Shown: positions 14,964 through 41,161 of the stretch, piece by piece
Layout of the letters: each line of letters opens with the position of its first letter
Numbering within the stretch: the stretch's first letter is position 1
DNA from: Tribonema minus
Lineage: Eukaryota; Sar; Xanthophyceae; Tribonematales; Tribonemataceae
Assembly (NCBI GenBank): GCA_017506865.1
Contig: JAFCMP010000552.1
Span: forward strand, 186,001 to 250,000
Reading direction: 5' to 3'
Length of the DNA stretch: 64,000 nucleotides
The notes under the pieces: model-generated
Database searches by the model: none
The model's input: only the letters and a program-made list of their open reading frames with translations
What the model was told of the DNA's origin: nothing
Made by a program: the position numbers and the translations under genes

Positions 14964-15056
14964 GCCTGTGTGTGCACTTGGTGATAGCGTGCCAAGCGCA
15001 CGCTGTGTACCGTCTTCCGCGTGTCGGCTTCTCGCCCGCAACCTGTATACTATCAG

Positions 15057-15128
15057 CACACCGTGGCGCAGAGGAAGCGCACCAGGCTCATAACCTGGGG
15101 GACACAGGATCGAAACCTGTCGGTGTGA
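15057..15128 (+). tRNA. tRNA-Met(CAT), initiator type, left-arm copy
   Basis: A 72-nt cloverleaf: acceptor stem CACACCG with CGGTGTG (7 pairs), D-stem GCGC/GCGC, anticodon stem CCAGG/CCTGG with loop CTCATAA, T-stem ACAGG/CCTGT with loop ATCGAAA, discriminator A. No intron, no encoded CCA. The A54/A60 T-loop (AUCGAAA) and the GCGCAGAGGAAGCGC D-arm are hallmarks of eukaryotic initiator tRNA. The first pair is C1-G72 in place of the usual A1-U72. Boxes A (TGGCGCAGAGG) and B (GGATCGAAACC) are intact. An identical copy lies in the other arm. Confidence 0.93.
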
Positions 15129-15138
15129 CTTTTAGCTA

Positions 15139-15301
15139 AAAATCAAATCCGGGTGCTGTCAAGACCCCCAACCTCGGCCTGAAAACCGTCAACAAACCCA
15201 TCGTCGCGCCCACAGCGACCCCCCTCCTCCCCAGTCCCAGTCTCTCCCAGTCAACACTCCAATATTAGTCATCATCATGAGTTGTCATCCCCCCCAACTG
15301 C
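15139..15301 (+). repeat. Dispersed C-tract repeat
   Basis: It begins with AAATCAAATCCGGGTGCTG and continues TCAAGACCCCC, a CTCGGCCTGAAAA block, and then C-rich stretches. Related copies lie near 16856-16990 and 20236-20395 (+) and near 38740-38945, 43455-43590 and 45165-45305 (-), with a fragment at about 36040-36065. The pairs at 15139/45305 and 16856/43590 belong to the inverted-repeat arms. The C runs vary greatly in length. Origin unknown. Confidence 0.75.
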
Positions 15302-16159
15302 TGGCTACAGTTAGAGAGAGAAACACACTGAGACAAGTTATGGATCACCTGTATGTATGAGTATGTATGAGTATGCATATATGCCCTTCACAGCTAGCTG
15401 CACACGTAGTTGCGGACTCCATGGTGGTCTCTTGGGTCGGCTTCTCTGCTTGTGCGAACTACTGACCAACTGACACATAGCAGCTGTGTGATGAGGCTTC
15501 TCGATGGTGCGGTCATCGTGCACTACCAATCAGACTGAGTGCAGACTCACTCATGTCAACAACAATGCTTTGTTTTCAAACGCATTTTGCTGGTTGTTTC
15601 CCCTGTCCAGGGGACCCCAGGCCTTGTGAGACAGCAACCAAGGCCCAACTTTAGACCATATAGCAGACAATTAGGACAATTTTCCCCCTAATTCACGTTT
15701 CTCCCTCTCTCATCAGCGATGCCGCAACCAGCCAGGAACACAGCAGCAACTTTTCAAAAAACACACAAGACTTCAAGTCACTCCCTCCACCTAAGCCATC
15801 CATGCTGCTGCCAAACTAGAGTTTGACCTCTTTGCATGTGAGGGCAGTTGTGCAGCAGCTGAGGAACACTAGCGCAGACTTGTAGGCAAGACTGGTGTGC
15901 ATCGGCGAGTCTCGCCTACGAGTTTTGACAAAATAAACTAAGTCAAACACAAGATGAGCAGCAGTGCACAGGTACAGCAAAACATCACACAGGAGCCTCT
16001 GAGAGCCTCTACAATCCCACATCCCATATGAGATTGCATTGTCATGATGGCGTGTGCTGCTGCATCTGGTACCCTACACTGGTCTCATGACAACACTCTG
16101 TGTGTCTGAACTGCACTGGAGTCTGGGTTTGTGTACATGGAGATCAAGCCTGTGTTGGC
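15302..16159. other. Non-coding part of the left arm
   Basis: Arm sequence mirrored at about 44340-45165. It includes part of a dispersed block (CAGTGCAGTTCAGACAC and flanks), related copies of which lie near 18300, 28160, 37640, 42110 and 44350. I see no gene. Confidence 0.5.
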
Positions 16160-16860
16160 ACACACAACATGAAAGGGTGCCTGATGCCGGCGGCCTTGAG
16201 TGCACAGCAATGTGCCAAGCGCGCCGATGCCTATACCGCTGCCCCCTACATATCACCACATGCTGTGTTGAACTTTCTGAACTGCACCACGTGTCATGAC
16301 TGTGATCAATTGTATGCACGACACAATGGGCTCTGTCTGGTTGACTTCAAGTCTCACGACATGTAAAGATCCGCCTCTAGCTGCTGCTGCTGCTGCGATT
16401 TGCCTACTAGGTACAACTCACTTCAGAATCTGGCACCCCGCCAAAAGACACAATGCTGTAACCCCGCGTGCGTCATGACTCACGAGAGAGAGAAGCTCTG
16501 TCCTACAGAGTGCAAAAGGGCCGTCGCCGCTGGCGACTGAACTAACGCAAGCGTATGGCTGCCACTATGCCTCAACACACTCCAGCCGACTTGAATGCGT
16601 GCTGCGCTGTGCTGCGCGCTGCTGCTGTGCCCAAGGGCAACCTCATCTATGAGGTCTAACACTGAGTCTCCTCCTGCCACCACAGCGAGGGGGGTCCCCC
16701 CACAGAAAACTATTGTCTACATACACCCCGCCGCGGCGGGGGATGCTTGCTGCGCGCTCCTCTGGGGAGCGCTGCGCCTCTGGGTCCGCGCAGTGCTCAG
16801 GAGCATTGGCTTCCGCAGCCCAGAGCAGGTGCTGGCGCTTGTAGGCGTGCTGCATCCTAA
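16160..16860 (-). repeat. Copy of a ~750-bp repeat family with a conserved open frame
   Basis: One of five copies (16160-16860, 18605-19350, 20540-21310, 36905-37600, 43590-44330). In each, one strand (here minus, 16855-16643) keeps the same short frame: HAYKRQHLLWAAEAN, then PEAQRSPEERAASIPRRGG, then VYVDNSF. Conservation of this frame across copies suggests descent from a coding mobile element. I do not recognise the domain. Confidence 0.7.
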
Positions 16861-17525
16861 AAATCGACTCCGGGTGCTGTCAAGACCCCCCCACCCTCGG
16901 CCTGAAAATCAACAACAGCCTCTGTCAACAGCGACAACCCCCCCCCCCCCGACTCCCGCATCAGGAGCGACAAGCCCCCCCCCCCCCCCCAGTCAGTGGC
17001 CACCATGGGGGCCACCCCACCACGAGCTGGAGGTAAGCACTGCTGCACAGTCCTGTGCAAATCACCACGCGACCAGTAACAGCAACTGTCCGGCCCATCT
17101 GCAGTATGATATCATCCCACCCCATCATGATGGCATGTGATATCATCGATGCATACCTGCAGCCATCAAGCTCTACATAGTGGCCAACTGGTGACAGAGT
17201 GTGTTTAGTTGCCAGTGGCGGTGGATAGCACAGCACACTGTCGTGGCAGACGTGGACGACCTTCACTGTTGGAGTACAGCCTAGAGGAAAAGGCACGTGC
17301 CCGGTACGGTCATCATAGATTCGAATCCTTACTAGACTCTAGACTGAGTTGCCAAAGTGGTGAAATTGGCAGTGGAGCGCTGGATTTACATTCATGTAGG
17401 TTCCAGTAGGTTCAAGCCCCTTCTTGGAAGGTTCAAAAAGGATGGCAAGTCGTTCTTGAACTTGTTATTCCCCCGGAGCGTTGAAGTGGTGTTGCAGCGC
17501 GTGAGGCTGGGGGGACGGATGTGTC

Positions 17526-18071
17526 ATGGCAGCGCCAGGGGGAGGCAGCGGTGGTGGCGACGTTGTGCTGCTGGGAGGTGCCCTGCCCAGCAGCAGGTCC
17601 AGGGAAGACGGCGTCCTCTACAACACCCGCACCGTGCCTCAAGCCCTGCCCACCTCCCTGGCCGACGTCCTGGACTGGGTGGCGCTGCTGTCAAAGGGAT
17701 GCCTAGGCTACACCCATTATCTGACCTCCAGCAGCGGCGCCGTCGCCCTGCCCCAAATTTCGAAGTTCCCCCCCCCCCTCCTCCTCAGGTTTTCATCTCA
17801 GGCAACGATGCCTTTTTCCATGGCCGCAACCAGGAACATGCTGGCGGGCATAGCACCCACACGCCACTTTCAAGTACGGCAAAGGAGCAACTGTTTTTTC
17901 TTTTTTCAAAAAAACACTCGTAGACAAGACTCGCCGATGAATACGAGTCTTGCCTACAAGTCACTCCCTCTAGATCTACAAATTTGTCACATACCTAAAC
18001 CAGGTCCTGCTCTTGGGTTGTGCATGACACATATTCAGTACTTGGCACCGAAGCTGCTGACTCACGGGTAG
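17526..18071 (+). CDS. Uncharacterised arm ORF, left copy (181 aa)
   Basis: The frame starts MAAPGGGSGGGDVVLLGG, continues NTRTVPQALPTSLADVLDWVALL and ends in low-complexity Phe/Lys sequence. The right arm (42917-42375, minus) keeps the same frame with few substitutions, and a related fragment lies at about 38370-38640. It may be the remains of a mobile-element gene. I recognise no domain, and the Ser/Gly-rich start and poly-Phe end argue against an intact gene. Confidence 0.3.
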   Translation: MAAPGGGSGGGDVVLLGGALPSSRSREDGVLYNTRTVPQALPTSLADVLDWVALLSKGCLGYTHYLTSSSGAVALPQISKFPPPLLLRFSSQATMPFSMAATRNMLAGIAPTRHFQVRQRSNCFFFFQKNTRRQDSPMNTSLAYKSLPLDLQICHIPKPGPALGLCMTHIQYLAPKLLTHG

Positions 18072-18604
18072 ACTTAGACCACTAGCCTCAGACTGCTGGT
18101 GCTTGTGGCTGTAAGCATGATGACAGTCAAGCCACAGCAAACTACAAGTTCACCCTCAGGCATGCATCAATCAATGGGAAACATGACATCAGGTCCCCAT
18201 GCAGACCGAGCACACAGCCAAACAGCTGTCACAAGAGCAAAACATGAAGCAGGGACAGCCTCACAAATATAAGCTCGCATTGTCAGGCGCTGCTACCCTG
18301 TACTGGTCATGACAACACTCTGTGTCTGAACTGCACTGGCAGCTGGGCTTGTACTACTGTACTCGTGCATGAAGAAGAAGCCTGCAGGCACGCAAAATTC
18401 TGAGACAGCATACTGCCACGGACTGCCCCCCATGCATGCCATGCATGCGGCTGCAAGACACCACGCATACCTAAAACTGGCGCATCACTACCAACCATGA
18501 TGGCCACCCACAGTCGTGCCAGCAGTGCGCTACATAGTATGCTACCTGCAGAGCTGCTGCACAATGTCATGACTTCAGTATCAGCTGCAGCTCAGCTACC
18601 ACAA

Positions 18605-19350
18605 GTGACCACATACAACATGAAAGGGTGGCTGATGCCGGTGGTCTTGAGTGCACAGCAATGTGCCAAGCGCGCCGATGCCTATACCGTTGCCCCCTAC
18701 TAGTAGCCTAAGGGTAGCACCACGTGCTGTGATCCTGAACTGCACCATGTCATGTGTGTGATGATGACATCTACGCATCACAATGGGCTCTGTCTGGTTG
18801 ACTCTCACAACATGTAAAGATCCGCCTCTAGTATCTGGCCACTTGCAAACGTGGCCGGCCGTCTGCTGCTGCTGCTGCTGCATTGCCTACTGCAACCCAC
18901 CCTGGCACCCCACCAGAAAAAACGACCAACCACTGTGACCTCCGCTGCGTCACGAGAGAGGTAAGCTCTGTCCTACAGGAGTGCAACGAGGCCGTCGCCG
19001 CTGGCGACTGAACCAACACAAGCGTATGGCTGCCACTGTGCCTCAACACACTCCAGCTAACTTGAAGGTATGATGGTGTACGCGCGCTGCGCTGTGCTGC
19101 GCGCTGCTGCCCCCCAAGAGCAACCTCATGTCTTGTCTACTAGTATGAGAGTCACCCCTCATGCCACCACAGTGAGGGGGGTCCCCCCACAAAAAAGGTG
19201 TTGTCAACATACACCCCGCCGCGGCGGGGGATGCTTGCTGCGCGCTCCTCGGGGGAGCGCTGAGCCTCCGGATCCGCGCCGTGCTCATGAGGATTGGCTG
19301 CTGCAGCCCAGAGCAGGTGCTGGCGCTTGTAGGCGTGCTGCACCCCCAGC
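18605..19350 (-). repeat. ~750-bp repeat family, second copy
   Basis: Same unit as at 16160-16860. The conserved minus frame lies at 19493-19152 and starts further upstream, including SPRDWLSLQDEALGVQHAYK. Sequence continues to about 19690 in common with 21310-21620 and 36640-36905. Confidence 0.7.
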
Positions 19351-19789
19351 GCCTCGTCCTGCAGCGACAGCCAATCACGGGGAGATCGCGCCATGATGAT
19401 CAGACAAGTCAGCAAGTGTTGAACAGCACAGCTCAGCAGAGCGTTGCCTACTACTGCATTGATCATCTCATTGAGTATAATAACTAAGTACATGAATGCT
19501 GAGCAGGGTGGGCATTATAGTATATGCAATGGCACTACAATATCAACTGCGCTGACGACTGCTGTGTCGCAATGGGAGCCGAGTCAGCCTACTTTCATGC
19601 ACCTGCATGGTGTGCTCTTACTAACCTATTGTGCATTGAAGTGATCGCATGAGACCATCAGATGCAGCCGCTGAGGTAATTCACAAACAACTTGAAGTTC
19701 CCGGCGACACAAAAACGGTCATCCCAGAAGCTGGCTGGCTGTCACAGCGGATCGCTGCGTACCAAAGTGCCTTTTCGACAGATCATTAG

Positions 19790-20200
19790 CTAGTTCAACT
19801 TGAAGATGCAGAGTAGTACCTCTGTGGCAGCGGAAATCCTCACGCGCTTCCGCCTCTTGGGCCATGCCCCGAGCCCCCCGCCGTCAGGCCGCGCCCCCGC
19901 CACGGGCTCCGCCATCGCCGCCCCCAGCCCGCCAACTCTCGCTTTGCTGCTCCGCGCGCTGCCGCTGCTCTTGGGGGTGGCGTTGCGCACAGGCGGCCGG
20001 CCGGCGCTCCGGACTGTGTCAGCGCTGCCGTCACGACCGCCGGACGCCCGCTGCCCGATCGCCAGCAGCGCCGCAACTACGCCCTCCAGGTGTGAGGCGT
20101 ACGCTGCCACGGCCACGCCACTCTCCGGCAACGCGCGACGCAAAGCTACGGCAGCCGCTGGTGAGTTCGGGACGGCAGGCGGCTGCTGCTGGTGCTGCAC
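19790..20200 (-). CDS. Uncharacterised repeat-borne ORF (136 aa), left copy
   Basis: The frame includes VAVAAYASHLEGVVAALLAIGQ, RPPVRNATP, AMAEPVAGARPDGGGLGAW and ends RVRISAATEVLLCIFKLN-stop. The right arm has the same frame at 36164-36493 (+), with conserved length and C-terminus. Shared reading frame after divergence suggests past coding function. No domain recognised. The stop sits in the recurrent TTCAACTTGAAG-type motif. Confidence 0.4.
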   Translation of the reverse strand: MQHQQQPPAVPNSPAAAVALRRALPESGVAVAAYASHLEGVVAALLAIGQRASGGRDGSADTVRSAGRPPVRNATPKSSGSARSSKARVGGLGAAMAEPVAGARPDGGGLGAWPKRRKRVRISAATEVLLCIFKLN

Positions 20201-20539
20201 GCTGCCGAACCAGTGACGCGCGACGTTGGATGAGCTGCTAAAAAATCAAATCCGGGTGCTGTCAAGACCCCCCAACCCTCGGCCTAAGAATCGTCAACAA
20301 AATCAACAGCCTCTGTACAACAGCAACAACCCCCCCCCCTGCCCAAGTCTCGCATCAGGAGCGACAAGCCCCCCCCCCCCCCCCCTCAGTCAATCAGTGG
20401 CCGCCATGGGGGCCACCATGGGGGCCACCCCACCACGAGCTGGAGGTAACTACTGTACTGCTGCACAGTCCTGTTTCAAATCACCACGTGACCAGTAACA
20501 GCAACGGTCCCATCCGCAAGTTCCCCCCGTCTACATGGA

Positions 20540-21310
20540 GATGAAGCCTGTGTTGGCACACACAACATGAAAGGGTGCCTGATGCCGGCGGCCTTGTGTG
20601 CACAACAATGTGCCAAGCGCGCCGATGCCTGTACCGCTGCCCCCTACATATCACCACATGCTGTGTTGAACTTTCTGAACTGCACCATGACATGTCTGTG
20701 ATCAACTGTATGCACACCAATGGGCTCTGTCTGGTTGACTTCAAGACTCACGACATGTAAAGATCCGCCTCTAGTATCCGGCCACTTGCAAATGTGGCCG
20801 GCCGTCTGCTGCTGCTGCTGCTGCATTGCCTACTGCAACCCACTCTGGCACCCCACCAGAAAAACGACCAACCACTGTAACCCCGCGTGCGTCATGACTC
20901 ACGAGAGAGAAAAGCTGTATCCTACAGGAGCACAACGAGGCCGTCGCCGCTGGCGATTGAACCAACGCAAGCGTATGGCTGCCACTATGCCTCGAAACAC
21001 TCCAGCTAAGGTGTGAGTATACTGTGAACGCGCTGCGCTGTGCTGCGCGCTGCTGCCCAAGGGCAACCTCATCTATGAGGTCTAACACTCCTCCTGCCAC
21101 CACAGCGGGGGGGGGGGAGGGGGGGGGGGGGGCACCAGGAAATTGTTGTCTACATACACCCCGCCGCGGCGGGGGATGCTTGCTGCGAGCTCCTCTGGGG
21201 AGCGCTGCGCCTCTGGAGCTGCGCCGTGCTGATGAGCATTGGCCTCTGCAGCCCAGAGCAGGTGCTGGCGCTTGTACGCGTGCTGCACCCCCAGCGCCTC
21301 CTCCGGCAGC
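20540..21310 (-). repeat. ~750-bp repeat family, third copy (left side only)
   Basis: Tandem to the copy at 18605-19350, separated by the 19690-20240 ORF unit and a C-tract repeat. The conserved minus frame is at 21462-21082. A 35-bp G run with one interruption lies near 21104-21132. Confidence 0.7.
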
Positions 21311-21617
21311 GACAGCCAATCACGGGGAGATCGCGCATGATGATCAGACAAGTCAGCAAGTGTTGAACAGCACAACTCTGCAGAGCGTTGCCTACCTCCT
21401 GCAGTGATCCTCTCATTGGACATGATGGAGCACATGAATGCTGAGCACTGCAGGGTGTGCATTCTAATGGATGTAGATGCGCTACAATGTCAACTGCACC
21501 TAACGACTGCTGTGGCGCAATGGGAGCTGAGCCAGACCACTTTCTACGCACCTGCATGGTGTGCTGATACAAAAAATGCCTATGATAATCGTGCATTGAA
21601 GCGATCACATGAGACCA

Positions 21618-23663
21618 TCAGATGCAGTCGAGCTCATTTACAAACAACTTCCCGGTGTCACACTGTGCAGAAACGATCATTATGATATCAGAATGCTGGC
21701 TGGCTGCGAGCGAAGCTGCCATGTTCAATGCAGGCCCACAAGCGAGGGAACTGAAGGACTGTGCAGCTAGCTGTGAGCCCCCATCGCTTGTCAGTGCGCG
21801 TCCATCTTGCGCCAGCTGTACCTGAGCATCAGCATGCCAGGTAAATGACTCTGGCGACGCAAACAACGTGACGTTGCCCTCGCAGTCTGGGGCCGGCACG
21901 TCATCTTCCTCTAGAAGCTCCTTGGCCTGCGCAATGCTCATGCTGAATAAGCGCCCCGCCACTCCTCCGTTCTCGCTTGCTGCTGCCATCACAGCTGCAT
22001 CGTTGACGCGGTAAGGAAACCCGTGTGGCGCCGCTACGGCATAGCCGTGTAACGTGGCCACTCTCACCACCCCTTGTTGAGCGCTGCTGCGCACAGTCTG
22101 ACCGTGCTGAGCGCCGCTGCACGTGCTGTCCGCAGTTACATGCTGATCATCAGCGAATTTGACCCCAGATGGCGGCGCATTGAAGCATGGCACTGCATCT
22201 GACCAACCCTCGTCAGAATGCCAGTACTCCTTTGGCGCGTCAAGCTCCGCTTGTGTTGGCAGCCGTGAAAGACCGTCTGCGTTTCCATTGTGCTTGCCAG
22301 ATCTGTGCTGCACGGTGACGTCATACTCCATGACTCGCATCGCCCAACGCAGCAACTTGCCATTGTGGTCCTGTAGTGTAAGTAACCACCTGAGCGCTGC
22401 TGCATCCGTGACCACCGTGACTGGGCACCCCCAGATGTATGGCCGGAAGTGGTTCAGCGACAACACCACTGCTAAGCACTCTAGCGCTGTTGCCCCCATG
22501 TTGGCGTCTTGCTCGCTGTTGAGCTTGCTGAAGTAGCCAACAACTACCTCTCTGACCTCCTCCCCCTTTTCAAGGCGGCGACGTCCCGTCGGCGTGCAAG
22601 GTTGCGCTTGCGCTTCTAGCTCCGTCAGTGGCCTAAGTACGCCCGCGCATGCTGTTTTGGAATCCGTGTACAGCACAAACGGCAACGAGAAGTCTGGGTG
22701 CATGACCAGCGTGGCGCCGCACATGGCCTCCTTCAGCCGCTGGTACGCGCGTTGTCGCGTGGCATCCCACAGCAGGTGCGAGTTCTTGTCTTTGGTGAGC
22801 TCTACGATGGGTGCCGCCAGTTTGCTGAAGTCTTTGATGTAGCGTCTGTAGTAGTTGAAGCAGCCCATGACGGTCTGCACCAATCTCTTGTCTGGCTTGC
22901 CCCTGCTTTCTAGTGGAAGTTCCATGCCTAGCATTGCCTTCACCTTGTCAGGATCTGGTGTAGCTCCGCCTGTGCCTACTATGTGCCCGGGAAACTTGAC
23001 CTCCTCGCGGAACAGCTGGCACTTGTGTCTGGCAACGCTCATGCCGGCGGCATCGATCCTCCCCAGCACATCGTCAAGCTGCTTGATGTGCGCCTCGAGT
23101 GAATTGCTGTAAATTAGCACATCGTCGATGTACACCATCGCGTGCACTCCGAGCGCCCCGCCTAGCACCTGGTGCATGAGCCGTGTGAACTGCGCCGGCA
23201 GGTTGACCAAGCCAAAAGGCGCCACCGTGTACTGGTACAACGCACCGTTGGGCAGTCGAAACGCGGTCTTGGGCTTGGCATCCTCTGAGAGTGGGATCTG
23301 GTTGTATCCGGCCGCCAAGTCGAGCGTTGACATGACCGATGCTCCGCGCAGCTTTTGCAGCATGTCGTCTATGTTGCCAATACCATGACTGTCGCGCTTG
23401 GTCACTGAGTTGAGTTTGCGAAAGTCAACGCAAAACCGAATCTTGTCGTTCTGCTGCACAAGCACTGGGTTGCAGGCCCAAGGGCTAGTTGAAACTTCAA
23501 CATGGCCCCGTTCTAGCATCGCCTTAACCCATTGAATGATGTACTCAGCCTCCTTCTGAGCCCAATGCCTGGCCCTGTCCGCCATTGGTGCCGCGTCGCC
23601 GGTATCTATGTCAATCTCCGTCAGGTGCGTCCGGCGTGGGTTCTTCGGGTCCTTTGCAAACAC
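21618..23663 (-). pseudogene. Ty3/gypsy reverse transcriptase and RNase H, without integrase
   Basis: An open frame of 681 codons. Reverse transcriptase blocks in order: STSPWACNPVLV, FCVDFRKLNSVTKRD, STLDLAAGYNQIPL, the AFGL-type TVAPFGLVNLPAQFTRLM, and the catalytic MVYIDDVLIYS (YIDD at residues 178-181), followed by the thumb with PDPDKVKAM. RNase H follows: FVLYTDSKTACAGVL, YFSKLNSEQDANMGATALECLAVV, HFRPYIWGCPVTVVTD and HRSGKHNGNADGLSRL (about residues 330-467). The remaining 210 residues are low-conservation with SAQ-type repeats and no zinc-binding HHCC or DDE integrase signature. An in-frame TGA at 23666-23664 separates it from the preceding linker frame. Confidence 0.9.
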
Positions 23664-24248
23664 TCAGCGATGCGCACGCAGCACCCGAAGTACCTTGTCA
23701 ACTAGCAACTCGCCGTCTAGCGCCTTTTCCCGCAGCATGGGATTGACTTCGCCGTCCACCATGAGCATCTCGCGCAGTTCCTCGTCAGTGCACAGGTCAT
23801 CATCCTGCTGCACTTGCGCGCCTTGCTCGCCTGGAGGCACCGGTGACGCTCCATTGGTGGTACTAGCCTCTGGTGACGCTCCACTGGTCACGCCTGTGTC
23901 TGGTGACGCTCTGTTGGTCGTGTCTGTGTCTGGTGATGCTCCACTGGTCGCGCCTGTGTCTGGTGACGCTCCATTGGCAGCGCATGCCGCTGGTGATGCT
24001 CCGTGGCTCTCTGTTTCTGGTGATGCTCCGCTGGTAGATGCCGTCGCTGAGCGTTGTGGTTCAAAGTGCTTGGCGAGCCCCTTTTGCAACCCGTCTGCCA
24101 TTACGGCGTCAGACTGCATATGATATGCAGTGGCTACTGCTGCCTGTTGCGCGCGCGGGTCTGGCTCCGCTTCTGCTGCACGCATCAGCCAATCTTGAAG
24201 TAGCCCAACACTGGCATCCTTCAAATCAACTATTTCTCCATCCTGCAC
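23664..24248 (-). pseudogene. Protease-RT linker with 30-bp minisatellite
   Basis: A 194-residue frame in phase with the reverse transcriptase frame and separated from it by one TGA. The N-terminal part contains VDLKDASVGLLQDWLMRAAE, the middle has six or seven repeats of a GASPDTGATS-type decapeptide, and the C-terminal part is acidic (DDDLCTDEELREMLMVDGE). No enzymatic motif. It fits a spacer between protease and reverse transcriptase. Confidence 0.6.
23842..24050 (-). repeat. Coding minisatellite, 30-bp unit
   Basis: About six tandem units, mostly 30 bp and one 27 bp, each starting TGGTGAYGCTCC on the plus strand, encode GASP-containing decapeptides on the minus strand. Unit lengths are multiples of three, so copy-number change keeps the frame. 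Confidence 0.85.
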
Positions 24249-25768
24249 TGGAGACTACGCTGCCGATGTGGGTATTGCGCCGTATCAAAAGTGGCATTGT
24301 TGAAATATTGACCACTTTGGCGTGCACTACATTCGCCGATGCCACGCGCACTGCCGCTAGCGCCACACGCGCGCCGCGCTGTGTCAGATCCTCCATGACC
24401 TGAGTGGTGCCTGGCACAAACACACCGTCATACTCCGACACTCCCTCCAGTTTTGGGTGCAAGCTCATCTCTAAAATCTGTTCTTCAAAGGGCGGTGTAC
24501 AACGTCCTCTGTGAGCCTTGCAGCCCTGTGCTGAGGTGGTGAAACTGCTGCCTCGGTAGGAGTACTTAATGACCCACGGCGCTTAATCTCACCAAGTGCC
24601 GCAGCTGCATCTCTAGCAGTCACTATAGGTGCAACTGGTCCACTGGCTCCAAGCGGCGCAAAAATTGGCTTGCCAGTCTCATATGATATGACCGAGCCAA
24701 ACTTCACAAAGAAGTCAGTGCCTAGATGCCATCCATGCCTGGCAGCTCCACAATGAAACACCTATGCTGGCACTGCTTACCCCCGAACTGTAACCATAGG
24801 GTCACCGCGCCAAGAATGGGGATGGACTTGCACATGTCAGCGAGCTCTATGACAGTGTTACGCCTCTCCACACGGCATCTAGCTCCAGCTGGCAAGTTTT
24901 CAGCTTGCTTGCAAGACAGCAGCGTGATGTCAGCGCCGGTGTCTACCAACATCTTCAAGCCGCGCTCCACGACAGCGCACTCGCTGCTCTTGCACTGGTC
25001 GCCACACAGGCGCCATGTGGTGTGCACAAAACCTCGGCTCTGCCAGCCATCAGAATCTGTCTCTGCGGCGTTGGCGATCGCGCCAAACTTGAACACCTTG
25101 CTGGTGTCATGCACGGCATCAGAGCGCGCGCTCTGGTCATTTGCCATCTGGCATCTTGCAGGTGTCGTCTGGCACCCTTCTCTGGCCACCTGGCATCTTG
25201 CAGGTATTGTCTGGCACCCTCTTCTGGCATTCTGGTCACTGGTCTCTCTGATATCTCTGGCGCCACCATTGCCCTCCCACTCTGGCTCCATTCTGGCATC
25301 CTCATCGCTCATGCCGGCAGCTGCGCTGCGCATTGCAGCCGCGCGAACTGCTTGTACATCACTAGCATCTGGCCAGCTGGCGTCAAGGAGTCGCGCCTCC
25401 TCATCACCACTCTCCTCCTCTGTGTCCCAGAAGTCTAGCACATCGCCCTTGTAGCTTGCTGGGTGCATGCGCTGAGCACTGTTACCTTGTGCGCCTTCTG
25501 TGCTGCCAGTACGTTGAGCACTGCCACTCACAACGCTCACTGGCGCACCAACTGTGCTGCAAGTAGGTTGAGCGCTGCTGCTTGACACGCCAGCTGTATT
25601 GTCGTTACGCTGAGCACTGTGCTGCAAGTCACTGCTGCTCGGCTGAGCACCGCCGTCATCAAGCTCCGCCACAGCACGTTGTGCTCTGGCAACATCTTCC
25701 TCATCTTCGGGAACATGCACTAAAACGTTCTGCGCAGCAGTCATCCACTCTGGTGGTGGCGCATTCAA
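24226..25768 (-). pseudogene. Retropepsin-like aspartic protease region of the retroelement
   Basis: The frame 25768-24722 has an Asp/Glu/Ser-rich N-terminus with SAQ-type repeats (SAQPTCSTVGAP, SAQRTGSTEGAQ) and a Cys-containing direct repeat (GCQTIPARCQ, GCQTTPARCQ). The protease core follows: KMLVDTGADITLLS (catalytic Asp codon at 24943-24941), then a flap region and CFIVELPGMDGI. The LGTDFF block expected next lies in another frame (24761-24471), so a one-base change interrupts the domain near 24722. A third frame (24468-24226) continues with VPGTTQVMEDLTQRG and NISTMPLLIRRNTHIG, typical of the segment before reverse transcriptase. These frame changes mark decay. Confidence 0.8.
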
Positions 25769-25769
25769 G

Positions 25770-28010
25770 TCATGTATTAGCTCGAAGCCCTGCTCTGCTG
25801 ATCCATGATTCCTGCCGCATAGCTGCGCGCAAAATGAAAGCTGCTGCCCTGGGCATGACTAGGTTTGCTATCATGAGGCTGAGCCTGTCCTTGGGCAAAG
25901 CTGGCAATGGCTTGTTGTAGGTCATGATCCTTAGAAACTGATCATGCGTGGGCACTGTTGCATGTTCAACTACGCCATCATCCTGAGCACTGCGCACATA
26001 GTATTGCCCAGGTACGCCAGGGTGACGTCTAATAGGGCTAGGAAGCAAGCCAGCAGTGCTGTAAACACATTTTTTGCCTTTCATGCGTGGTTTGAGAAAC
26101 AGCAGGGATCCAAGCTCCAGCACCGCCGCACGCATCGAGGTCTGTGTAGTGCGCCGCACAATTGCATTGATGAAAGCTCTAAAACACTGAACTGCCTCAC
26201 GTGCCCCCGGTCTAGCTTTTACTATGGCGCAGTAAACTCTGGTGCGCCTGCAGGGGCATCCCAACAGCTTGCCCGGCAGCAGCGCTGTGTACACCGCGTA
26301 CCCCCTGCTGACTAGAAACTGCTTCGCCGCTTGCCAAGCCTTGGAACGCAGCATCTGCTGCACATTCTCAAGAAGTGCAAACTTGACCCTCCCGGCTATC
26401 AGGCTACTGGCTGCCATACTGGTACACTCCGCCGCGGCGCCTCCGCGGAGGACGCCGTCATGACTGCCTTCGCGGATGACGCCGTCATGACTCGAGTAGT
26501 CCGTGCATGGCGGGCTATACGTGACGACATCAGGCTTCGCTAGCGCCACTGCCTCCGCTATTGCCTGGTCGCCGACGCTGAAAACAATACTTCTGGTGCC
26601 GCAAAACGCTGTCTTGTACGCCGCGACCACAATGGGGTCAATGTCCACTGCCAGCTGCGTCTCCACCCCCACACCGTGCTCGCGCAGCTGCTCGAAGCCT
26701 GCCTCCCAGCCGCCGATGCCCGCGAACAGGGATACGTGCTTGAGCGTCCTGACGCACCCGTTGGTCGTCTGGTGCGTGTGTACCGGTGCGGCCGTCTCAG
26801 ATCCCTGTGCCACGGCAGAGAGGTGAGGTTGAGAGGCGAGAGGATCGGGTGAGCCAATGCCCATGCACGTCTGGCGATTGCTGGCGAGGTCAGGTGAAAG
26901 TCGTGACTGGCTACCATCACCTAGCTCAACGCTGCTAGAAGCGCCGCCGCTGGCGCTGCTGGTGCCATCAAGTCTTGTAGTCAACGTGCTCTGCGCGTCA
27001 GATTGCAGGTGCGCAAGTGGTACGAGCATGACTGGTGCTGGCTCTCGTGTAGCGTCACTCCGGGTTGAAGTTGAATTTGAGGTTGACGCGCGCGCCGCCA
27101 CTGCGCTCCTCGCCTTTGTGCAGTGATCAGCTGAGCGCCGAGCAGATGATGCGCATGCATGTATATCGCGCGCGCCGCTGGTGCTGAGCAGCGCTGCTGC
27201 GTCAACTGGTGAAGTTCGAGCACCCGGTTTGACCGCGGTTGAAGTATGCGTATGAGCACTGGCAGAATCATGCTGATTGGCAGAGTCATGCTTGTCACTG
27301 GCTCTGAGCACTGCTGCGCCGGCAGATGAATCATGCGTACTGGACCCAGTCGATGTTGAATCATGCGCGACATCAGTTGAAGTTGAACTGCGAGTGCCAG
27401 CATCAGCGCTGCACGCGCGCAATCTAGGCGCTCCAGCTCGTGACCTGCCTCCAGCGCTCGCGCCGCTGCTGCCACTAGCGGCTGCACCGTGCACTTCACC
27501 TTTCTTGCGCCGCTCGCACTCCAAGATCAAACCATCCGTGGAGATGTCCGCGAAAACGTCCTTCACGCTCGCCGCTGCTGCGCGCCTAGCGCCACGCGAC
27601 CTGCTCCTGTTGCCGCGCAAGTGACTCCTGCGCCTGTTGCCATTGCGCCTACCGCCGTCGCGCCTGTCGCCACCGCGCCCGCCGCTGCGCGACCAGCTCC
27701 TGTACGTGGTCGCTGTTGCTGCGGCGCCGCGTGTCGCCAGCAGGCGAGTGAGAACGCTTGCGCCCGCGTTTGCCAGCGTGCTGCTGCTTCGTGGAGCGGG
27801 ACCTGCCGCCGTTGCGCCCCCAAGCCTGCTCGCGCCATGATGTCTGTGCGCCATAGTCCGTGTCACGGCTGCTCCTGGGAGGCGGCCCTTGCAGGCTGCG
27901 CTGAATGACGGAGCTCTCCGCGCACTCCCTCCTGAGCGCTGCCGCATCAAACCGCAGCTGCTCCAGTCTGGTCTGCAGGCCGCGCGCCTCGTCCTGCATG
28001 TCCAGCACAC
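25770..28010 (-). CDS. Cytosine-5 DNA methyltransferase domain in the retroelement polyprotein
   Basis: A 746-codon frame. The first 410 residues are basic, then Ser/Thr/Ala-rich linker. The methyltransferase spans about 420-735. Motif I is HVSLFAGIGGWEAGF (about 425-439, SAM binding). Motif IV is YSPPCTDYS, with the catalytic Cys at about residue 502. Motif VI is LLENVQ (ENV at 548-550). A motif VIII-like CRRTRVYCAIV and a motif X-like IANLVMPRAAAFIL follow. The enzyme class transfers a methyl group from SAM to cytosine C5 in DNA. The target-recognition region between VIII and X is divergent and partly basic. It ends two bases before the protease frame, and the two frames overlap openly for several codons, so frameshift translation is possible. 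It belongs to the retroelement by strand, contiguity and order. Motifs appear intact although neighbouring parts are broken. Confidence 0.88.
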   Translation of the reverse strand: MCWTCRTRRAACRPDWSSCGLMRQRSGGSARRAPSFSAACKGRLPGAAVTRTMAHRHHGASRLGGATAAGPAPRSSSTLANAGASVLTRLLATRGAAATATTYRSWSRSGGRGGDRRDGGRRNGNRRRSHLRGNRSRSRGARRAAAASVKDVFADISTDGLILECERRKKGEVHGAAASGSSGASAGGRSRAGAPRLRACSADAGTRSSTSTDVAHDSTSTGSSTHDSSAGAAVLRASDKHDSANQHDSASAHTHTSTAVKPGARTSPVDAAALLSTSGARDIHACASSARRSADHCTKARSAVAARASTSNSTSTRSDATREPAPVMLVPLAHLQSDAQSTLTTRLDGTSSASGGASSSVELGDGSQSRLSPDLASNRQTCMGIGSPDPLASQPHLSAVAQGSETAAPVHTHQTTNGCVRTLKHVSLFAGIGGWEAGFEQLREHGVGVETQLAVDIDPIVVAAYKTAFCGTRSIVFSVGDQAIAEAVALAKPDVVTYSPPCTDYSSHDGVIREGSHDGVLRGGAAAECTSMAASSLIAGRVKFALLENVQQMLRSKAWQAAKQFLVSRGYAVYTALLPGKLLGCPCRRTRVYCAIVKARPGAREAVQCFRAFINAIVRRTTQTSMRAAVLELGSLLFLKPRMKGKKCVYSTAGLLPSPIRRHPGVPGQYYVRSAQDDGVVEHATVPTHDQFLRIMTYNKPLPALPKDRLSLMIANLVMPRAAAFILRAAMRQESWISRAGLRANT

Positions 28011-28194
28011 GCCGCCTCTGACCGCTGGCCACGCGCTGGTTGCATACGCGTTCCACTCCTTGCAGCTCCGAGTGGTCCGGTGATCCGCGAAGCTTGCACC
28101 TGCGTGCTGCAGCTGGTCCTGAGCTCACTGATGGCTTGTGCCGCAGCTCAACATGTAGCATATGCAATCCCGTAATCCAGTGCAGTCCAGACAC
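27649..28194 (-). pseudogene. Coiled-coil, basic N-terminal segment of the retroelement (possible Gag remnant)
   Basis: This frame overlaps the start of the methyltransferase frame but reads better: LQGVERVCNQRVASGQRRR, then a heptad-like LDMQDEARGLQTRLEQLRF and DAAALRRECAE, then an Arg/Lys/Gln-rich tail (KQQHAGKRGRKRSHSP). A coiled coil followed by a basic tail would suit a Gag-like or nucleic-acid-binding protein. No CCHC zinc knuckle is seen. A frame change near 27640 would connect it with the downstream frame. Confidence 0.45.
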
Positions 28195-28340
28195 AAAGCG
28201 TTTTCAGTATAGTGTAGCAGAATCAACAGTGCCTGACAATGCAAGCTTGTACAGGATGCGACATTTGAGAGCCTCTCCTACGCAATGTGTTGCTGTTTGT
28301 GTGCACTGCTGCTCCAGTTGTGTGTTGACTGCCGCATAGC
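28140..28340 (+). repeat. Diverged copy of the CAGTGCAGTTCAGACAC repeat
   Basis: Similar to 37620-37800 and 44340-44510 over most of its length, with many substitutions. It abuts the 5' end of the retroelement. A 27-bp tandem pair (CAGATGGCATTGCGGGCCTT) follows at about 28483-28532. Confidence 0.6.
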
Positions 28341-28801
28341 ACCTGTTGTACGTATTGGAGGACCTGCAGGTGGGTCATGATGCTTCTTTTTGGTTGACGA
28401 TTAGAGCGCACATGGTGCCAAGTGGCATGGTGGCTGACAGCACTCGACTTTCCAGCATAAACTTGTGGTGCACATTTTTCTTCAGATGGCATTGCGGGCC
28501 TTGATGTTCAGATGGCATTGCGGGCCTTGATGGTGCAGCTTTGTATGCGTATGTGCAGCAAGTTTGTTATGTAAGTGCATTAATCGTAGGGGGGACACGC
28601 ACATAGCTTGCGCACACAGATTTGTTTGTCACGCACACAATTCACTGTTTTCAGCGCATGTGCATTTACCCAGCTGCGGCATACCCAGTCTACCAAGGGT
28701 GGGGCGCCGCAATGGTGCCTATACATGCTAGCGCACTGCCACGTGTCCATTTCTGGTTTTGAGGCATATGATATTTTAAAGCATGTCCCCATGGGGCCAT
28801 A

Positions 28802-29073
28802 TTATTCAGGTCCCCCAGTATAGCAAGTGCTCAGCTCGTCCGACAGCTGAGCACCCAGTGGCACCTCTCTGACCTTGATGTCAGACACTTTCCTGAACTC
28901 TTTGTACAATTGCGTTGCTGGACTGATGACGCAGAGCGTGTCATTTACGGTTTGAGCCACCTCCTGCGCAAGTGCAAAGCTCTTCATCATCCTGGGCCAC
29001 TTTGCATCGCCCTTGCCAGTGGCACTTGACGGTATGTTGGCCAAAACATACTGCAGCCGTATGCGCCTGTAAA
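28802..29073 (-). CDS. Possible terminal exon of an unrecognised protein
   Basis: Minus-strand frame preceded by an acceptor-like TTTTACAG near 29073. It reads RIRLQYVLANIPSS, KWPRMMKSFALAQEVAQTV, CVISPATQLYKEF and VREVPLGAQLSDELSTC before a TAA. Amino-acid composition is balanced, unlike the low-complexity frames around it, which supports coding. No domain is recognised and no upstream exon could be found. It could be a host exon or a fragment of the nearby retroelement's Gag. Confidence 0.35.
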
Positions 29074-34709: not shown

Positions 34710-36163
34710 GGCCGGCAGTGTGCCGCACTGCGGTCAGCAGCGCAGAGGCGAGGGCTGCTGCTGCGCCGGGCGCCGCCGCCGCGCACAGCGCCGCCGCCAT
34801 GCCCACGGTGGCGCTGCGCGCAGCAGCTGCTGCTGCTGCTGCGGTGGCGCCGCCGCTGCTGCCTCCGTCACCGCCGCCAAGAAAGGTCAGTTGCTGCCAG
34901 CGGACGCCCTGCATGCACCAGCGCCAGTATCGCTGCGTGGACGCCGCCGCAGGACTTGCTGCCGCTGCCGCCGCGCTCCGCAGCTGCGCGCGCGACAAAG
35001 GCCATCGCGGGGGCGCCGCCGGTGGCACTCGCGGTGCCGCCGGAGGCAGCGGCGGCGCGCACGCTCACGGAAACCTCCCCTGCCAGAAACCACTTGTCAT
35101 CCACCGTCACGTGCGGATCGCTGCTGCCGCCGCCGGCGTCGCTGCCGCCGCCGCCGCAGCGACGCGCAGCGGCAAGCAATGAGAGTAGTACTCGAGAGAG
35201 TGCACAGGCGGCGCCGGCGGCGCCGGGCGCTCTGCTGCTGCCGCTGCCGCCGGCGCCGCAGCAGCAGCAGTGGCAACTCGCTGGAGCGCTGCAGAAGGGC
35301 TCCGCGCCGCACAGCGCTGCGCTGCAGACTGCCGCCTCTGCAGCGAATTCGCCCAGCGCCGCTGGCGCTGCTGTATCTTCCGCGCGCGCTGCATCCAGCA
35401 ACGCCAGGAGGCGCGGAGACCATGCAGCGCGGCACCGCGGCAGCAGAGGTCGCTGCTGCTCTCGCGGAGGCCCAGGAGGCAGCGGCGCGGGGGGGCTGCC
35501 TCTGCTAACCAGCAGCAGCACAGAGGCACCAAGATCTCAAGAGCAGCATGCAACGGCAACCGTTGTTCATTCAAGGCAGCGGCATCACGAGTGCTGCGTG
35601 CCATCATCATGGAATGCTGCAACATGGTGTTGCGGCTTGGACGTATGCATCTCACCAATAGTAGTTTAGAGGGGGGCATGTGCCATCAGAGAGTTCCAGG
35701 GTTTTTCCTATAGGATATCCCTGAGGCAAACAAAAGTAAAAAGTAACTATACCTAGCTGGCCAGAGTGCCAGGACTTCCCATCTGAAGTCACTTAGGTAT
35801 ATAAAGATGTCAAACCTCAGATACCTTCAAGTTACCTAGCTGGCCAGAGTGCTAGAGTGCCAGGCTCAGGTGGGGGCTGGCCAGATATTGAGTGAACATG
35901 AGGCTGAGGGGGTATTGACCGTCACGGTGCAGCTAGCTTTGATGGGGGGGGACGGGGCTCTGCTTCTGCGGACCACCCACCGAGCTTGGTGGTTTGCAGG
36001 TGAGTGCGGGGGGTGGTTTCTGGGGAGGTGCGGGGGGGGGTCTGATTGACAGCACCCGGATTGTCTGGTTCGGCAGCTTGCAGCACCAGCACCAGCAGCA
36101 GCCGCCTGCCGACGGCGTCCCGAACTCACCAGCGGCTGCCGTAGCTTTGCGTCGCAGAGTGGC

Positions 36164-36493
36164 GTGGCCGTGGCAGCTTACGCCTCGCACCTGGAGAGCG
36201 TAGTGGAGGCCCTGCTGGCGCTCGGGCAGCAGGCGTCCGGCGGTCGCGACGGCGGCGCTGATACAAACCTGAGCGCTGGCCGGCCGCCTGTGCGCAATGC
36301 CACCCCCACCAGCAGCGGCGGCACGTGGCGCAGCAAAGTGAGCGCCGGGGGGCTGCCGGGCGCGGTGATGGCGGAGCCCGTGGCGGGGGCGAGGCCTGAC
36401 GGCGTGGGGCTCGGGGCATGGCCCAGGGGGCAAAAGCGCGTGAGGATTCCCGCTGCAACAGAGGTACTACTACGCATCTTCAAGTTGAACTAG
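36164..36493 (+). CDS. Uncharacterised repeat-borne ORF (109 aa), right copy
   Basis: Right-arm counterpart of the minus frame at 19790-20200, with VAAYASHLESVVEALLALGQ, RPPVRNATPTSS and a C-terminus RVRIPAATEVLLRIFKLN-stop. Upstream codons are in another frame compared with the left copy. Function unknown. Confidence 0.4.
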   Translation: MAVAAYASHLESVVEALLALGQQASGGRDGGADTNLSAGRPPVRNATPTSSGGTWRSKVSAGGLPGAVMAEPVAGARPDGVGLGAWPRGQKRVRIPAATEVLLRIFKLN

Positions 36494-36779
36494 CTAATGA
36501 TCTGTCGAAAAGGTACTTTGGTACGCAGCGATACGCTGTGACAGCCAGCCAGCTTCTGGGATGACCGTTTTTGTGTCGCCGGGAACTTCAAGTTGTTTGA
36601 GAATTACCTCAGCGGCTGCATCTGATGGTCGCATGTGATCACTTCAATGCATCATCATCATAGGCATTTTGTATCAGCACACCATGCAGGTGCATGAAAG
36701 TAGTCTGGCTCAGCTTCCATTGCGCCGCCACAGCAGTCGTCAGTGCAGTTGACATTGTGTCGCATCTACATCCATTAGA

Positions 36780-37223
36780 ATGCCCACCCTGCAGTGCTCA
36801 GCATTCATGTGCTCCATCTGTCCAATGAGAGGATCACTGCAGGAGGTAGGCAACGCTCTGCTGAGCTGTGCTGCTCAACACTTGCTGACTTGTCTGATCA
36901 TCATGGCACAATCTCCCCGTGATTGGCTGTCGCTGCAGGCGGAGGCGCTGGGGGTGCAGCACGCTTACAAGCGCCAGCACCTGCTCTGGGCTGCAGAGGC
37001 CAATGCTCATCAGCACGGCGCAGCTCCAGAGGCGCAGCGCTCCCCAGAGGAGCGCGCAGCAAGCATCCCCCGCCGCGGCGGGGTATATGTAGACAACAGC
37101 TTTTTTGTGGCGGGACCCCCCCTCGCTGTGGTGGCAGGAGGAGTGTTAGACCTCATAGATGAGGTTGCCCTTGGGCAGCAGCGCACAGCACAGCGGAGCG
37201 CGCCTACACTACTGGTCGTTTAG
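36780..37223 (+). CDS. Longest open frame of the ~750-bp repeat family (147 aa)
   Basis: It includes SPRDWLSLQAEALGVQHAYK, RQHLLWAAEANAHQHGAAPE, SPEERAASIPRRGGVYVDN and GGVLDLIDEVALGQQ. The same frame persists in four other copies (16855-16643, 19493-19152 and 21462-21082 on minus; 43580-43789 on plus). It may be a fragment of a mobile-element protein; no family recognised. Confidence 0.4.
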   Translation: MPTLQCSAFMCSICPMRGSLQEVGNALLSCAAQHLLTCLIIMAQSPRDWLSLQAEALGVQHAYKRQHLLWAAEANAHQHGAAPEAQRSPEERAASIPRRGGVYVDNSFFVAGPPLAVVAGGVLDLIDEVALGQQRTAQRSAPTLLVV

Positions 37224-37619
37224 CTGGAGTGTTTCGAGGCATAGTGGCAGCCTTACGCTTGCGTTGGTTGTGTCGCCAGTGGCGACGGCCTCGTTGCACT
37301 CCTGGAGGATACAGCTCTTCCCTGTCATGACGCACGCGGGGTTACAGCGTTGTGTCTTTTGGCGGGGTGCCAGATTCTGAAGTGAGTTGTACCTAGTAGG
37401 CATACCGCAGCAACAGCAGCAGACGGCCGGCCACATTTGCAAGTGGCCGGATACTAGAGGCGGATCTTCACATGTTGTGAGTCTTGAAGTCAACCAGGCA
37501 GAGCCCATTGTCGTGCAAACAGTTGATCACAGTCATGACATGTGGTGCAGTTCAGAAAGTTCAACACAGCATGTGGTGATATGGTTTATGTTGTGTGTGC
37601 CAACACAGGCTTGATCTCC

Positions 37620-38970
37620 ATGTACACAAACCCAGATTCCAGTGCAGTTCAGACACACAGAGTGTTGTCATGAGACCAGTGTAGGGTAACAGATGCAGCA
37701 GCACACGCCATCATGACAATGCAATCTCGTATGGGATGTGGGATTGCAGAGGCTCTCCTGTGTGATGTTTTGCTGTTCGTGTGCACTGCTGCTCATGTTG
37801 TGCTTGCCGTCCAGGTGCCGTCACATATTTGGAACAGCTATTACATTGTGGTATGCATGTGCTTACATTTGCCCATGGTGGACTGTGTCGCCTTCCTGGC
37901 TGGTGGACAAGCTTGCAAGAAGGTTACGCAGGGCCTGTGACAACGCTGGACACTACCAATGCAGTGCAACAGATGGCTCAGTTTGTGCCCCACCATCTTG
38001 CATACTTGAAGTACATGAATGCGTGCCTTGTGATGCTTTGCATAGTGCCGCCGTGGCCTGCTCACTGCTGTGCCATATGCTCTCACCTTGCCCGGGCTGT
38101 ACCTACCATTCAAAACAAACCACAATGCTGCACCGCCTGTGCTTGACTGCAATGTCCTGGGTGTTGCATGCCTGCTGGATTGGCGCTGGTGATGCATGAC
38201 CTACATCAATGTCCTGCTTGATTGACCGTAGGTTATGACCTGCCCACCTACGCACCCAATACCATTCGCCGCATTCACCATAGCTTGCCCTACTTGGATT
38301 GGGGTCTCATGGTATGACGCCCGCCTTTGACGATCATTCCCCTGTAAATAAACATGCTGGCGTAAATAAACATGCTGGCGGGCATAGCACCTGCACGCCA
38401 CTTCCAGTACGGCAGTGAAGGAGGAGCACTGTGTGGAGGAGAAGTCCAGCTGCACATCGACTGCCCTGAGTTGAAGTATGTTTTTTTTTCTTTCCCAGAA
38501 CTTGTAGACAAGGCTCGCCGATGCAGACAAGTCATGCCTACAAGTCACTTCTCTCTAAAAGCCCAGGTCCTGCTTCTGGGGTGTGCATGACACATATTCA
38601 GTACTTGGCACCAAAGTTGCTGACTCACATGGTGGCCTGCTTCATATTCTTCGTGTTTGGTACTTCAGGCTCCTTATGTTCGGTCATTGCTGAGAGAGTT
38701 CGAGAGAGTTCAAGCTGTGACCTCACTCATAGCCAGCAGCTGTTGGGGGGGGGGACTAATGATGATGAGGGGGGGGGGGGGCTATTGTCCTGAGGGGGGG
38801 GGGGGGGGGGCTGCAGTGGGGTGGAGTGTTGACTGGAGACTGGGACTGGGGAGGGGGGGGGTCGCTGTTGGGGACAGAGGCTGTTGTTTTTGTTTGACGA
38901 TTCTTAGGCCGAGGTTGGGGGGTCTTGACAGCACCCGAATTAAAAATGAGCTGCAGCTAATATTGAAGCC
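37620..38970. other. Shuffled repeat segment of the right arm
   Basis: A CAGTGCAGTTCAGACAC repeat (37620-37800), a stretch of unique-looking sequence, a direct copy of 17836-18060 (38370-38640) and a C-tract repeat read in reverse (38740-38945) with long G runs. The plus frame at 37738-38199 is Cys-rich and carries no recognisable domain. Confidence 0.5.
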
Positions 38971-39237
38971 ATGACATTGTGCAGCAGCTCTGCAGGCAGC
39001 ATACTATGTAGCGCATTGCTGGCACGACTGTCACGGTGGGGGGCCATTGGTAGTGATGCACCAGTTTTGTGTGTGGTGTCTTGCAGCCGCATGCGCGTCA
39101 TGCATGGGGGAAGTCCTTGGCAATATGCTGTCTCAGAACTTTGCGTGCATGCAGGCTTCTTCTTCATGCACTACCAGTGTGCGTCCAGGTGTTGTCGACA
39201 CATGTGCCATGCACGTGTCTCGGTACCTGTACGACAT

Positions 39238-41100: not shown

Positions 41101-41161
41101 CACACTGGCAGTTCTCCCCTCTGTTATTTCAGCACCAATGACGTCAACATATGGTGCTGCT

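Follow-up and report, generated by a model that had tools for sequence, protein, structure and literature searches.

Methyltransferase and retroelement parts in the window

A 64,000-nucleotide stretch of the genome of the xanthophyte alga Tribonema minus (contig JAFCMP010000552.1, positions 186,001 to 250,000; hereafter the window) holds a C5 cytosine methyltransferase (MTase) frame directly upstream of a protease, a reverse transcriptase (RT) and an RNase H, and raises the question of whether the enzyme belongs to a retroelement and what such an element might gain from it. We propose that one decayed Ty3/gypsy-like long terminal repeat (LTR) retrotransposon, with the MTase as an inherited module of its polyprotein, accounts for these parts, and give the explanation as a whole, including the single capture and the mechanism set out below, a probability of roughly 0.6. 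The open frame with the MTase spans 25770..28010 on the minus strand (746 amino acids) in a maximal stop-to-stop frame of about 25773-28124, and the sister copy L006 (contig 204, 90% DNA identity) matches along it; the N-terminal part of the frame is probably Gag-derived or a linker. The MTase domain itself lies at 25800..26780 (minus strand), as delimited by Pfam DNA_methylase PF00145 (residues 424-597 of the frame, E 2e-18) and by alignment with nine other element MTases. The motif assignment of the initial annotation holds for SLFAGIGG (motif I), the catalytic SPPC, ENV and RRTR, but the C-terminal half is divergent and falls outside the Pfam match, which covers only model positions 2-161 of 324. 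A phmmer search of the PDB with the window frame alone returned nothing at E 0.001; a profile of ten element MTases did match.

The remaining parts follow on the same strand. A retropepsin-like protease remnant with a DTGA motif (24731..25030, minus strand) was located by tblastn with the polyprotein of the related locus L016 (E 6e-15) in a frame different from that of the MTase, and gag-asp_protease PF13975 matches weakly in frame 24722-25768 (E 0.003; 18.6 bits, below the 28.2 cut-off). The linker between protease and RT (24256..24725, minus strand, two frames) was likewise traced by tblastn. Frame 21618-23663 encodes the RT (22977..23447, minus strand; RVT_1, E 7.3e-31, residues 73-229) and the RNase H (22323..22694, minus strand; PF17917, E 7.9e-20, residues 324-447), which together share 68% identity with L016. 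Pfam and motifs thus confirm the order first reported, an MTase followed by a protease and RT/RNase H on one strand.

The window copy is damaged. Its MTase and RT both lie in frame -3, whereas the protease is read in frame -1 and the linker runs over frames -3 and -2, in keeping with the frame breaks noted originally; in L006 one frame runs from the MTase into the next segment. The MTase frame, described as intact, is indeed open, yet its ratio of nonsynonymous to synonymous substitution rates (dN/dS) against L006 is 0.64, and the copies of this family are therefore considered to be decaying. By tblastn, no Gag was found in the window copy with the N-terminal parts of L016, L024, L031, L032 and P0003 as queries, and no integrase core was found with the C-terminal parts of L016, L024 and P0002, which gave the stretch adjoining the RNase H or nothing. 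No direct-repeat pair was seen flanking the copy; the LTR search proposed for this element succeeded in another lineage, described below.

Two peculiarities of the window copy may be recorded here. Its MTase has a nine-residue insertion, GSHDGVLRG, a partial repeat of the neighbouring sequence that is missing from nine other aligned MTases of the same type. Directly downstream of the RT frame, at 16131-21650, a repeat of about 2 kb occurs three times and may have replaced the integrase end.

Spread of the MTase-bearing elements through the genome

The genome searched comprises 158.2 Mb in 554 contigs. A DNA search (best 40 of 241 candidates) places at least six copies of the window family, the window included, on contigs 549, 119, 23, 4, 204 and 323 at 90-95% identity. 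The outcome that the initial annotation had named as telling against it, element copies without the MTase and the enzyme only as a separate gene, is not what we found: the MTase region is present in five of the six copies (the one on contig 23 is gapped at the MTase start), and the sixth, on contig 323, begins downstream of it. At the protein level, PF00145 is found in at least 123 places (378 candidates) in frames of 196 to 3,501 amino acids, and three further protein queries extend the merged list to at least 271 places, fragments of decayed copies included; this list omits the four places of L001-L004 and enters duplicates once. By hand count, 58 MTase places belong to single frames that are 2,700 or more amino acids long and have no stop inside the match, although some small contigs may duplicate others. 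Elements of this kind, which had been called rare, are thus anything but rare in this genome. Many copies encode the MTase together with RT, RNase H and integrase in a single open frame, and the search for further copies joining MTase and RT, suggested at the outset, found both in one open frame in many families.

Linkage of the two enzymes was assessed from the RT side. With the window RT as query, 77 of 94 RT places are preceded on the same strand by a listed MTase at a distance of up to 7 kb (median gap 1,945 bases); the RT of a second lineage, A, gives 73 of 99 (median gap 1,507 bases). The chance expectation is about 0.006 upstream MTases per RT. As these searches score the best candidates only, the 17 and 26 unlinked RTs include families with unlisted MTases, fragments and truncated copies. 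Upstream DNA was inspected at seven loci whose RT lacked a listed MTase (contigs 8, 352, 15, 214, 550, 54 and 59), and the domain was present in all seven; of the five scanned, Pfam matches it in four, L031, L032, L073 and L074, the fifth, L072, is identified only through its similarity to sister copies, and in L075 the domain is split over two frames. No Ty3/gypsy family without an MTase was found among the RT loci looked at, which do not amount to a full census. A chance juxtaposition of a host or viral MTase gene with a retroelement could be argued from the window copy alone, where the frames are broken; with both enzymes in one open frame in dozens of copies, and with a linkage far above expectation, we reject it. 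That the MTase is a genuine module of these elements is hardly in doubt.

A frame of 6,208 amino acids on contig 311 (about 3898-7878) runs without interruption and contains an MTase and an RT of the window's lineage, possibly two element copies fused in frame. The genome also encodes stand-alone C5 MTases of a type other than those of the elements (L001, L002 and L003; frames of 367-390 amino acids), of which L002 and L003 are nearly identical and lie on two contigs. The CpG observed/expected ratios of loci L001 (1.16) and L002 (1.05) are above those of the other loci measured, and the three genes are perhaps of viral origin.

Architecture of three element lineages

Three deep lineages, A, B and C, carry the MTase. 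All six polyproteins scanned, from A and B, show the Ty3/gypsy order RT, RNase H, integrase (H2C2, rve), with RT, RNase H and H2C2 above their cut-offs in each and rve at 24.7-32.1 bits, below its 32.6 cut-off in each. The same architecture is found in the protein database relatives P0002, P0003 and P0030.

Lineage B includes the window copy, L006, L016-L022, L024, L025 and L028-L032, with P0002 and P0003 elsewhere. Its order, read from L016 and L024, is Gag, MTase, protease, RT, RNase H, integrase; in L016 the MTase occupies residues 984-1131, the protease 1547-1630 and the RT 1974-2130, followed by the integrase, and L016 alone gives a protease match, below cut-off. Lineage A (L011-L015, L023, L026, L005 and L007, with P0030 elsewhere) is arranged as protease, MTase, RT, RNase H and integrase, with a chromodomain in most copies. 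In L023 the protease lies at residues 591-682, the MTase at 853-1172 and RVT_1 at 1572-1729, and then come RNase H, H2C2, rve and Chromo (2544-2595). The lineage A protease is matched by Pfam below cut-off in L023 and L026, with no match in L013 and L014. Lineage C (L071-L075, with L027 a distant relative by RT) has the order protease-like DSCAG motif, MTase, RT, its protease being identified by motif only. The placement of the MTase upstream of the protease, as originally described, is therefore true of lineage B; in A, and by motif in C, the enzyme stands between protease and RT instead.

Lineage A resembles the chromoviruses in its succession of RT, RNase H, integrase and chromodomain and differs from them in the MTase between protease and RT; we know of no described chromovirus with an MTase, and our literature search by title and abstract start turned up none. 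In L013 and L014 a chromodomain comes after the integrase; the match in L023 falls slightly short of the Pfam cut-off, and P0030 has the domain among its stored annotations. The chromodomain raises the possibility that the enzyme acts in trans on host chromatin, creating a methylated niche in which copies would be tolerated or to which the chromodomain would steer integration. However, neither L026 nor the two lineage B polyproteins scanned gave a chromodomain match, and a place inside Gag-Pol favours action within the particle, so that we regard this explanation as quite unlikely.

Ordinary LTRs are found in lineage A copies. The copy on contig 551 is bounded by LTRs of 208 bp that are identical at 208 of 208 positions, have TG...CA ends and are flanked by a 4-bp GTAA target duplication, with a primer-binding-like sequence after the 5' LTR; to judge from these sequences it is a recent insertion. 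A second copy, on contig 340, has an LTR pair with one 1-base gap and no clear target duplication. Its flank at first suggested DIRS-like split repeats. As the extra segment also occurs 5' of the copy on contig 378, it is best taken as flanking host DNA that separates two copies, on contigs that are duplicates, and the DIRS-like arrangement was discarded.

In L012 and L015 of this lineage, a single in-frame stop is all that separates the Gag frame from the Pol frame (5055-5057 in L012; 1219-1221, a TAG, in L015), which suggests a possible read-through signal. The Gag of L012 has a CCHC-like knuckle, CX2CX3HX4C.

Origin of the MTase module

The RT tree splits into A, C and B. Within the sampling used, the MTases of all three lineages form one clade, with support of 100/98 against 28 other MTases (22 from IMG/VR, three from this genome and three from a protein search) and of 91/96 on a shorter N-terminal alignment to which DNMT1 and two DNMT2 pieces were added; as expected, a DNMT2-like exon from this genome falls in with the DNMT2 sequences. 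Approximately unbiased (AU) tests, run on groups chosen once the tree was known, speak against placing lineage A with 13 phage MTases (p 0.017) and against placing lineage B with the non-element MTases as a whole (p 0.033). We infer that the MTase was captured once into the Pol region, before A, B and C diverged, and that its place with respect to the protease changed in B. Independent captures by A and by B/C would explain the differing place relative to the protease, and both the two polyprotein positions and the low MTase identity between lineages (17-22% in three pairs compared) would suit them; the single clade and the AU tests, with the sampling as used, speak for a common origin, and we consider separate captures rather unlikely.

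By profile, the element MTases are most similar to C5 methyltransferases of the DNMT2/HhaI type over motifs I-VIII. The best PDB matches are DNMT2 tRNA methyltransferases for lineage B (E 1.5e-16, with HhaI at 4.6e-15) and for lineage A (E 1.2e-11, with DNMT1 at 1.9e-11). HaeIII was also matched, and some of the other chains appear to be CMT and, for lineage B, DNMT5-type. No DNMT3-labelled chain occurs among the 53 (lineage B) and 51 (lineage A) PDB sequences at E up to 1. The DNMT2 matches might indicate that the enzyme methylates RNA, either the genomic RNA or the primer tRNA, as DNMT2 does, and not DNA, which would also agree with the lack of clear CpG depletion described below. Yet HhaI and DNMT1 score close behind, the DNMT2 match spans only the shared motif I-VIII half, and the trees separate the element MTases from those of the DNMT2, DNMT1 and phage kinds, with the DNMT2 sequences outside the element clade. 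An RNA substrate is accordingly judged very unlikely.

Relatives were also found elsewhere. P0001 is 99% identical to L021 and hence comes from the same species or a near one. The MTases of P0002 and P0003 are 72% alike, and that of P0003 shares at most 48% identity with the places found in this genome, so its family probably resides in at least one other organism. Among the 26 matches listed in a search with the lineage B alignment over at most 8,000 candidates, P0004 (52%) and P0005 (36%) are closest; the others, short local matches apart, are generic MTases at 24-31%. A recent giant-virus or phage origin was considered and set aside: an IMG/VR scan with the window MTase alone found no relative, the lineage alignments retrieve distant ones (23-25% identity at seven loci for B, 21-34% at 27 loci for A), and the 22 that were entered in the tree (six of the seven for B and 16 of the 27 for A; L070 was left out for its shortness) group outside the element clade. 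Matches in phage records show 24-29% identity in the best 10 of 12.

Conservation and proposed function of the MTase

All 26 element MTases in the alignment have RxR, and 25 have both the catalytic Cys and ENV; this set includes some nearly identical copies and not every copy fetched. MTase dN/dS is 0.09-0.25 in six open-frame pairs of families or copies and 0.34 in a seventh. In lineage B the values are 0.14 (L016/L020), 0.16 (L016/L029) and 0.22 (L021/L024), and in lineage A 0.25 (L014/L023), 0.09 (L023/L026) and 0.59 (L005/L007). Pairs with dS of at least 1.8 give 0.24 (L016/L031), 0.34 (L031/L032) and 0.43 (window/L016), and lineage C pairs give 0.15, 0.17 and 0.23, with 0.33 for two nearly identical copies. 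The MTase is under purifying selection between families.

We propose that the MTase, since it lies inside Gag-Pol, would be made as part of that polyprotein and packed into the virus-like particle, where the element protease would release it to methylate the new double-stranded complementary DNA (cDNA) before or at integration. The new copy would thereby bear a host-like mark, which might confer tolerance, resistance to nucleases or deaminases, or installation in methylated chromatin; the chromodomain of lineage A is of interest in connection with the last. Methylation of cDNA as the main function has in our estimate slightly less than an even chance.

Several observations weigh against an inherited MTase module that is maintained as an enzyme. 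One is the C214 family of lineage C (L072, L079, L080 and L081), in which a segment of about 25 residues with the catalytic Cys is missing in all four copies and ENV has become ENA; the family has nonetheless multiplied, and its frames remain open over 3,452-3,455 amino acids. As the four copies are nearly identical, the loss of the segment is a single event that spread. In the B1 family (L016, L019, L020, L028 and L029), motif I contains one extra residue (CCGALGG, or CCGAPGG in L029), and in L020 R replaces its first G; to judge from the motif, cofactor binding may be altered in these MTases. The MTase is under weaker constraint than the RT in most pairs compared: four of the MTase pairs give RT values of 0.06, 0.07, 0.13 and one with saturated dS, and the nearly identical pair L016/L020 gives 0.24. 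CpG depletion, sought as a footprint of methylation, gave no clear signal, the observed/expected ratio in the elements being 0.67-1.01 against 0.88 for the window outside 14000-29000 and 0.73-0.95 for four light-harvesting loci; the lowest values, 0.67 and 0.72, belong to lineage C, and the very lowest to the family without the catalytic Cys. As for the phylogeny, both MTase trees warn of long branches, L027 above all, and omit DNMT3, DNMT5 and the published retrotransposon DNMTs. Within A there is a weak conflict, the RT tree joining P0030 to A1 (80/86) and the MTase tree A1 to A2, and the deepest agreement between RT and MTase is trivial because three lineages allow only one unrooted tree.

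The C214 family bears on the possibility that the domain is kept mainly for binding DNA or nucleoprotein, as a cDNA chaperone, a reader of CpG or hemimethylated sites or a guide to integration, with catalysis dispensable. Besides having open frames, the family, in which the loss goes back to one ancestral event, still shares 70% identity with its catalytic sister over the rest of the domain (pairwise dN/dS 0.15). However, catalytic Cys and ENV are kept in all 25 other aligned element MTases, pairwise dN/dS is silent on when the constraint acted, and Pfam does not recognise the MTase domain in L072. Binding as the general role is thus unlikely, and methylation by the catalytic families remains our preferred reading; in C214 itself the MTase, its catalytic segment lost, would act by binding only.

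Taken as a whole, these data permit a single history, in which one capture preceded the split of the three lineages and the MTase became a standard gypsy module of this algal group, changed its place relative to the protease in one lineage, was maintained by selection and, in one family, became a DNA-binding pseudo-enzyme without catalysis. We advance it tentatively, with the odds somewhat against the complete sequence of events. If it is true, methylation or the recognition of methyl sites would be an ordinary step of replication and not an oddity.

Comparison with known systems

Retrotransposon-borne cytosine MTases are already known from Symbiodinium (LINE and DIRS elements) and Klebsormidium (a Gypsy element with DNMT3 and DIRS-like repeats). 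The closest described system, in the parts of the 2018 report drawn on here (PMC5890265), is KnitGypsy-Dnmt3 of Klebsormidium nitens, a Gypsy-type element with a C5 MTase in its Pol frame. The Tribonema elements share with it an MTase inside the Pol frame, the lack of introns, a multi-copy state and purifying selection (Ka/Ks < 0.2 there). They differ from that DNMT3-class, DIRS-like-repeat element in the absence of DNMT3-labelled chains from the profile matches, in the ordinary LTRs of a lineage A copy, in their several deep lineages, in the chromodomain of A and in the family without the catalytic segment. SymbioDIRS-Dnmt3 and SymbioLINE-Dnmt, from the same parts of that report, are likewise high-copy retrotransposon cytosine MTases of an alga. 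Unlike SymbioDIRS-Dnmt3, which pairs DNMT3 with a tyrosine recombinase, all six Tribonema polyproteins have the H2C2/rve integrase and none a recombinase match; unlike SymbioLINE-Dnmt, in which the MTase frame lies upstream of the RT frame without an integrase, the integrase is present in all six, and LTRs in a lineage A copy. An independent capture in this lineage, as the initial annotation proposed, is supported only indirectly, by the lack of a DNMT3-labelled PDB chain and by the ordinary LTRs.

De Mendoza et al. had proposed cDNA as the MTase substrate for their elements; SymbioDIRS MTases were active in yeast, and the SymbioLINE and KnitGypsy enzymes gave no activity, a result called inconclusive in the passages used (PMC5890265). 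The same passages refer to two earlier notes in which DNMTs were linked with RT domains. A survey of eukaryotic DNMTs published in 2025, as far as the sections at hand go, mentions DNMT3 members in retrotransposons and cites streptophytes and dinoflagellates (PMC12344493), and a 2019 review mentions, in the portion consulted, Ty3/Gypsy and DIRS elements that encode DAM and DCM in several groups of algae, the two enzymes being lumped (PMC6338049). An earlier sighting of cytosine-MTase Ty3/gypsy elements in algae is therefore possible, although in these partial sources we traced no case outside the 2018 paper. The literature searched by title and abstract start, a scope that leaves aside most subscription papers, preprints and Repbase, holds no other report of such elements, and nothing further appears in the parts drawn on of PMC9998398, PMC12542154 and PMC11105155. 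New, as far as seen, are an MTase whose profile matches point to another kind, carried by three Ty3/gypsy lineages within a single alga and at two polyprotein positions, an ordinary LTR element with an MTase that appears to be a recent insertion, relatives elsewhere, and a family without the catalytic segment.

The host, probably a chlorophyll a/c alga, would add a lineage to the dinoflagellates and charophytes of the 2018 report. Cytosine methylation is a main weapon against transposons, yet these transposons encode the enzyme themselves, in several lineages, under selection and with at least one apparently recent copy. Why a genomic parasite would make the silencing mark of its host becomes testable: the families with open frames, the Cys-less family and the identical LTR pair form a natural experiment on what an element gains from methylating, or only binding, its own DNA. 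What a retroelement gains from methylating its own DNA is a question left by the 2018 report, in the parts used here (PMC5890265).

Other features of the genome and the window

Among the light-harvesting genes of this genome, L033 is nearest to fucoxanthin chlorophyll a/c protein (FCP) chains, and L034 to LHCI chains of PDB entry 9vfj and then to ACP/CAC-type antenna chains. These genes point to a photosynthetic eukaryote whose plastid is probably of the red, chlorophyll a/c type. In the window, a large inverted duplication surrounds the element (13300-21650 and 36065-46860), with 3.7 kb at 96% identity and weaker blocks besides; each arm carries an identical tRNA-Met gene, at 15057-15128 on the plus strand and at 45316-45387 on the minus strand.

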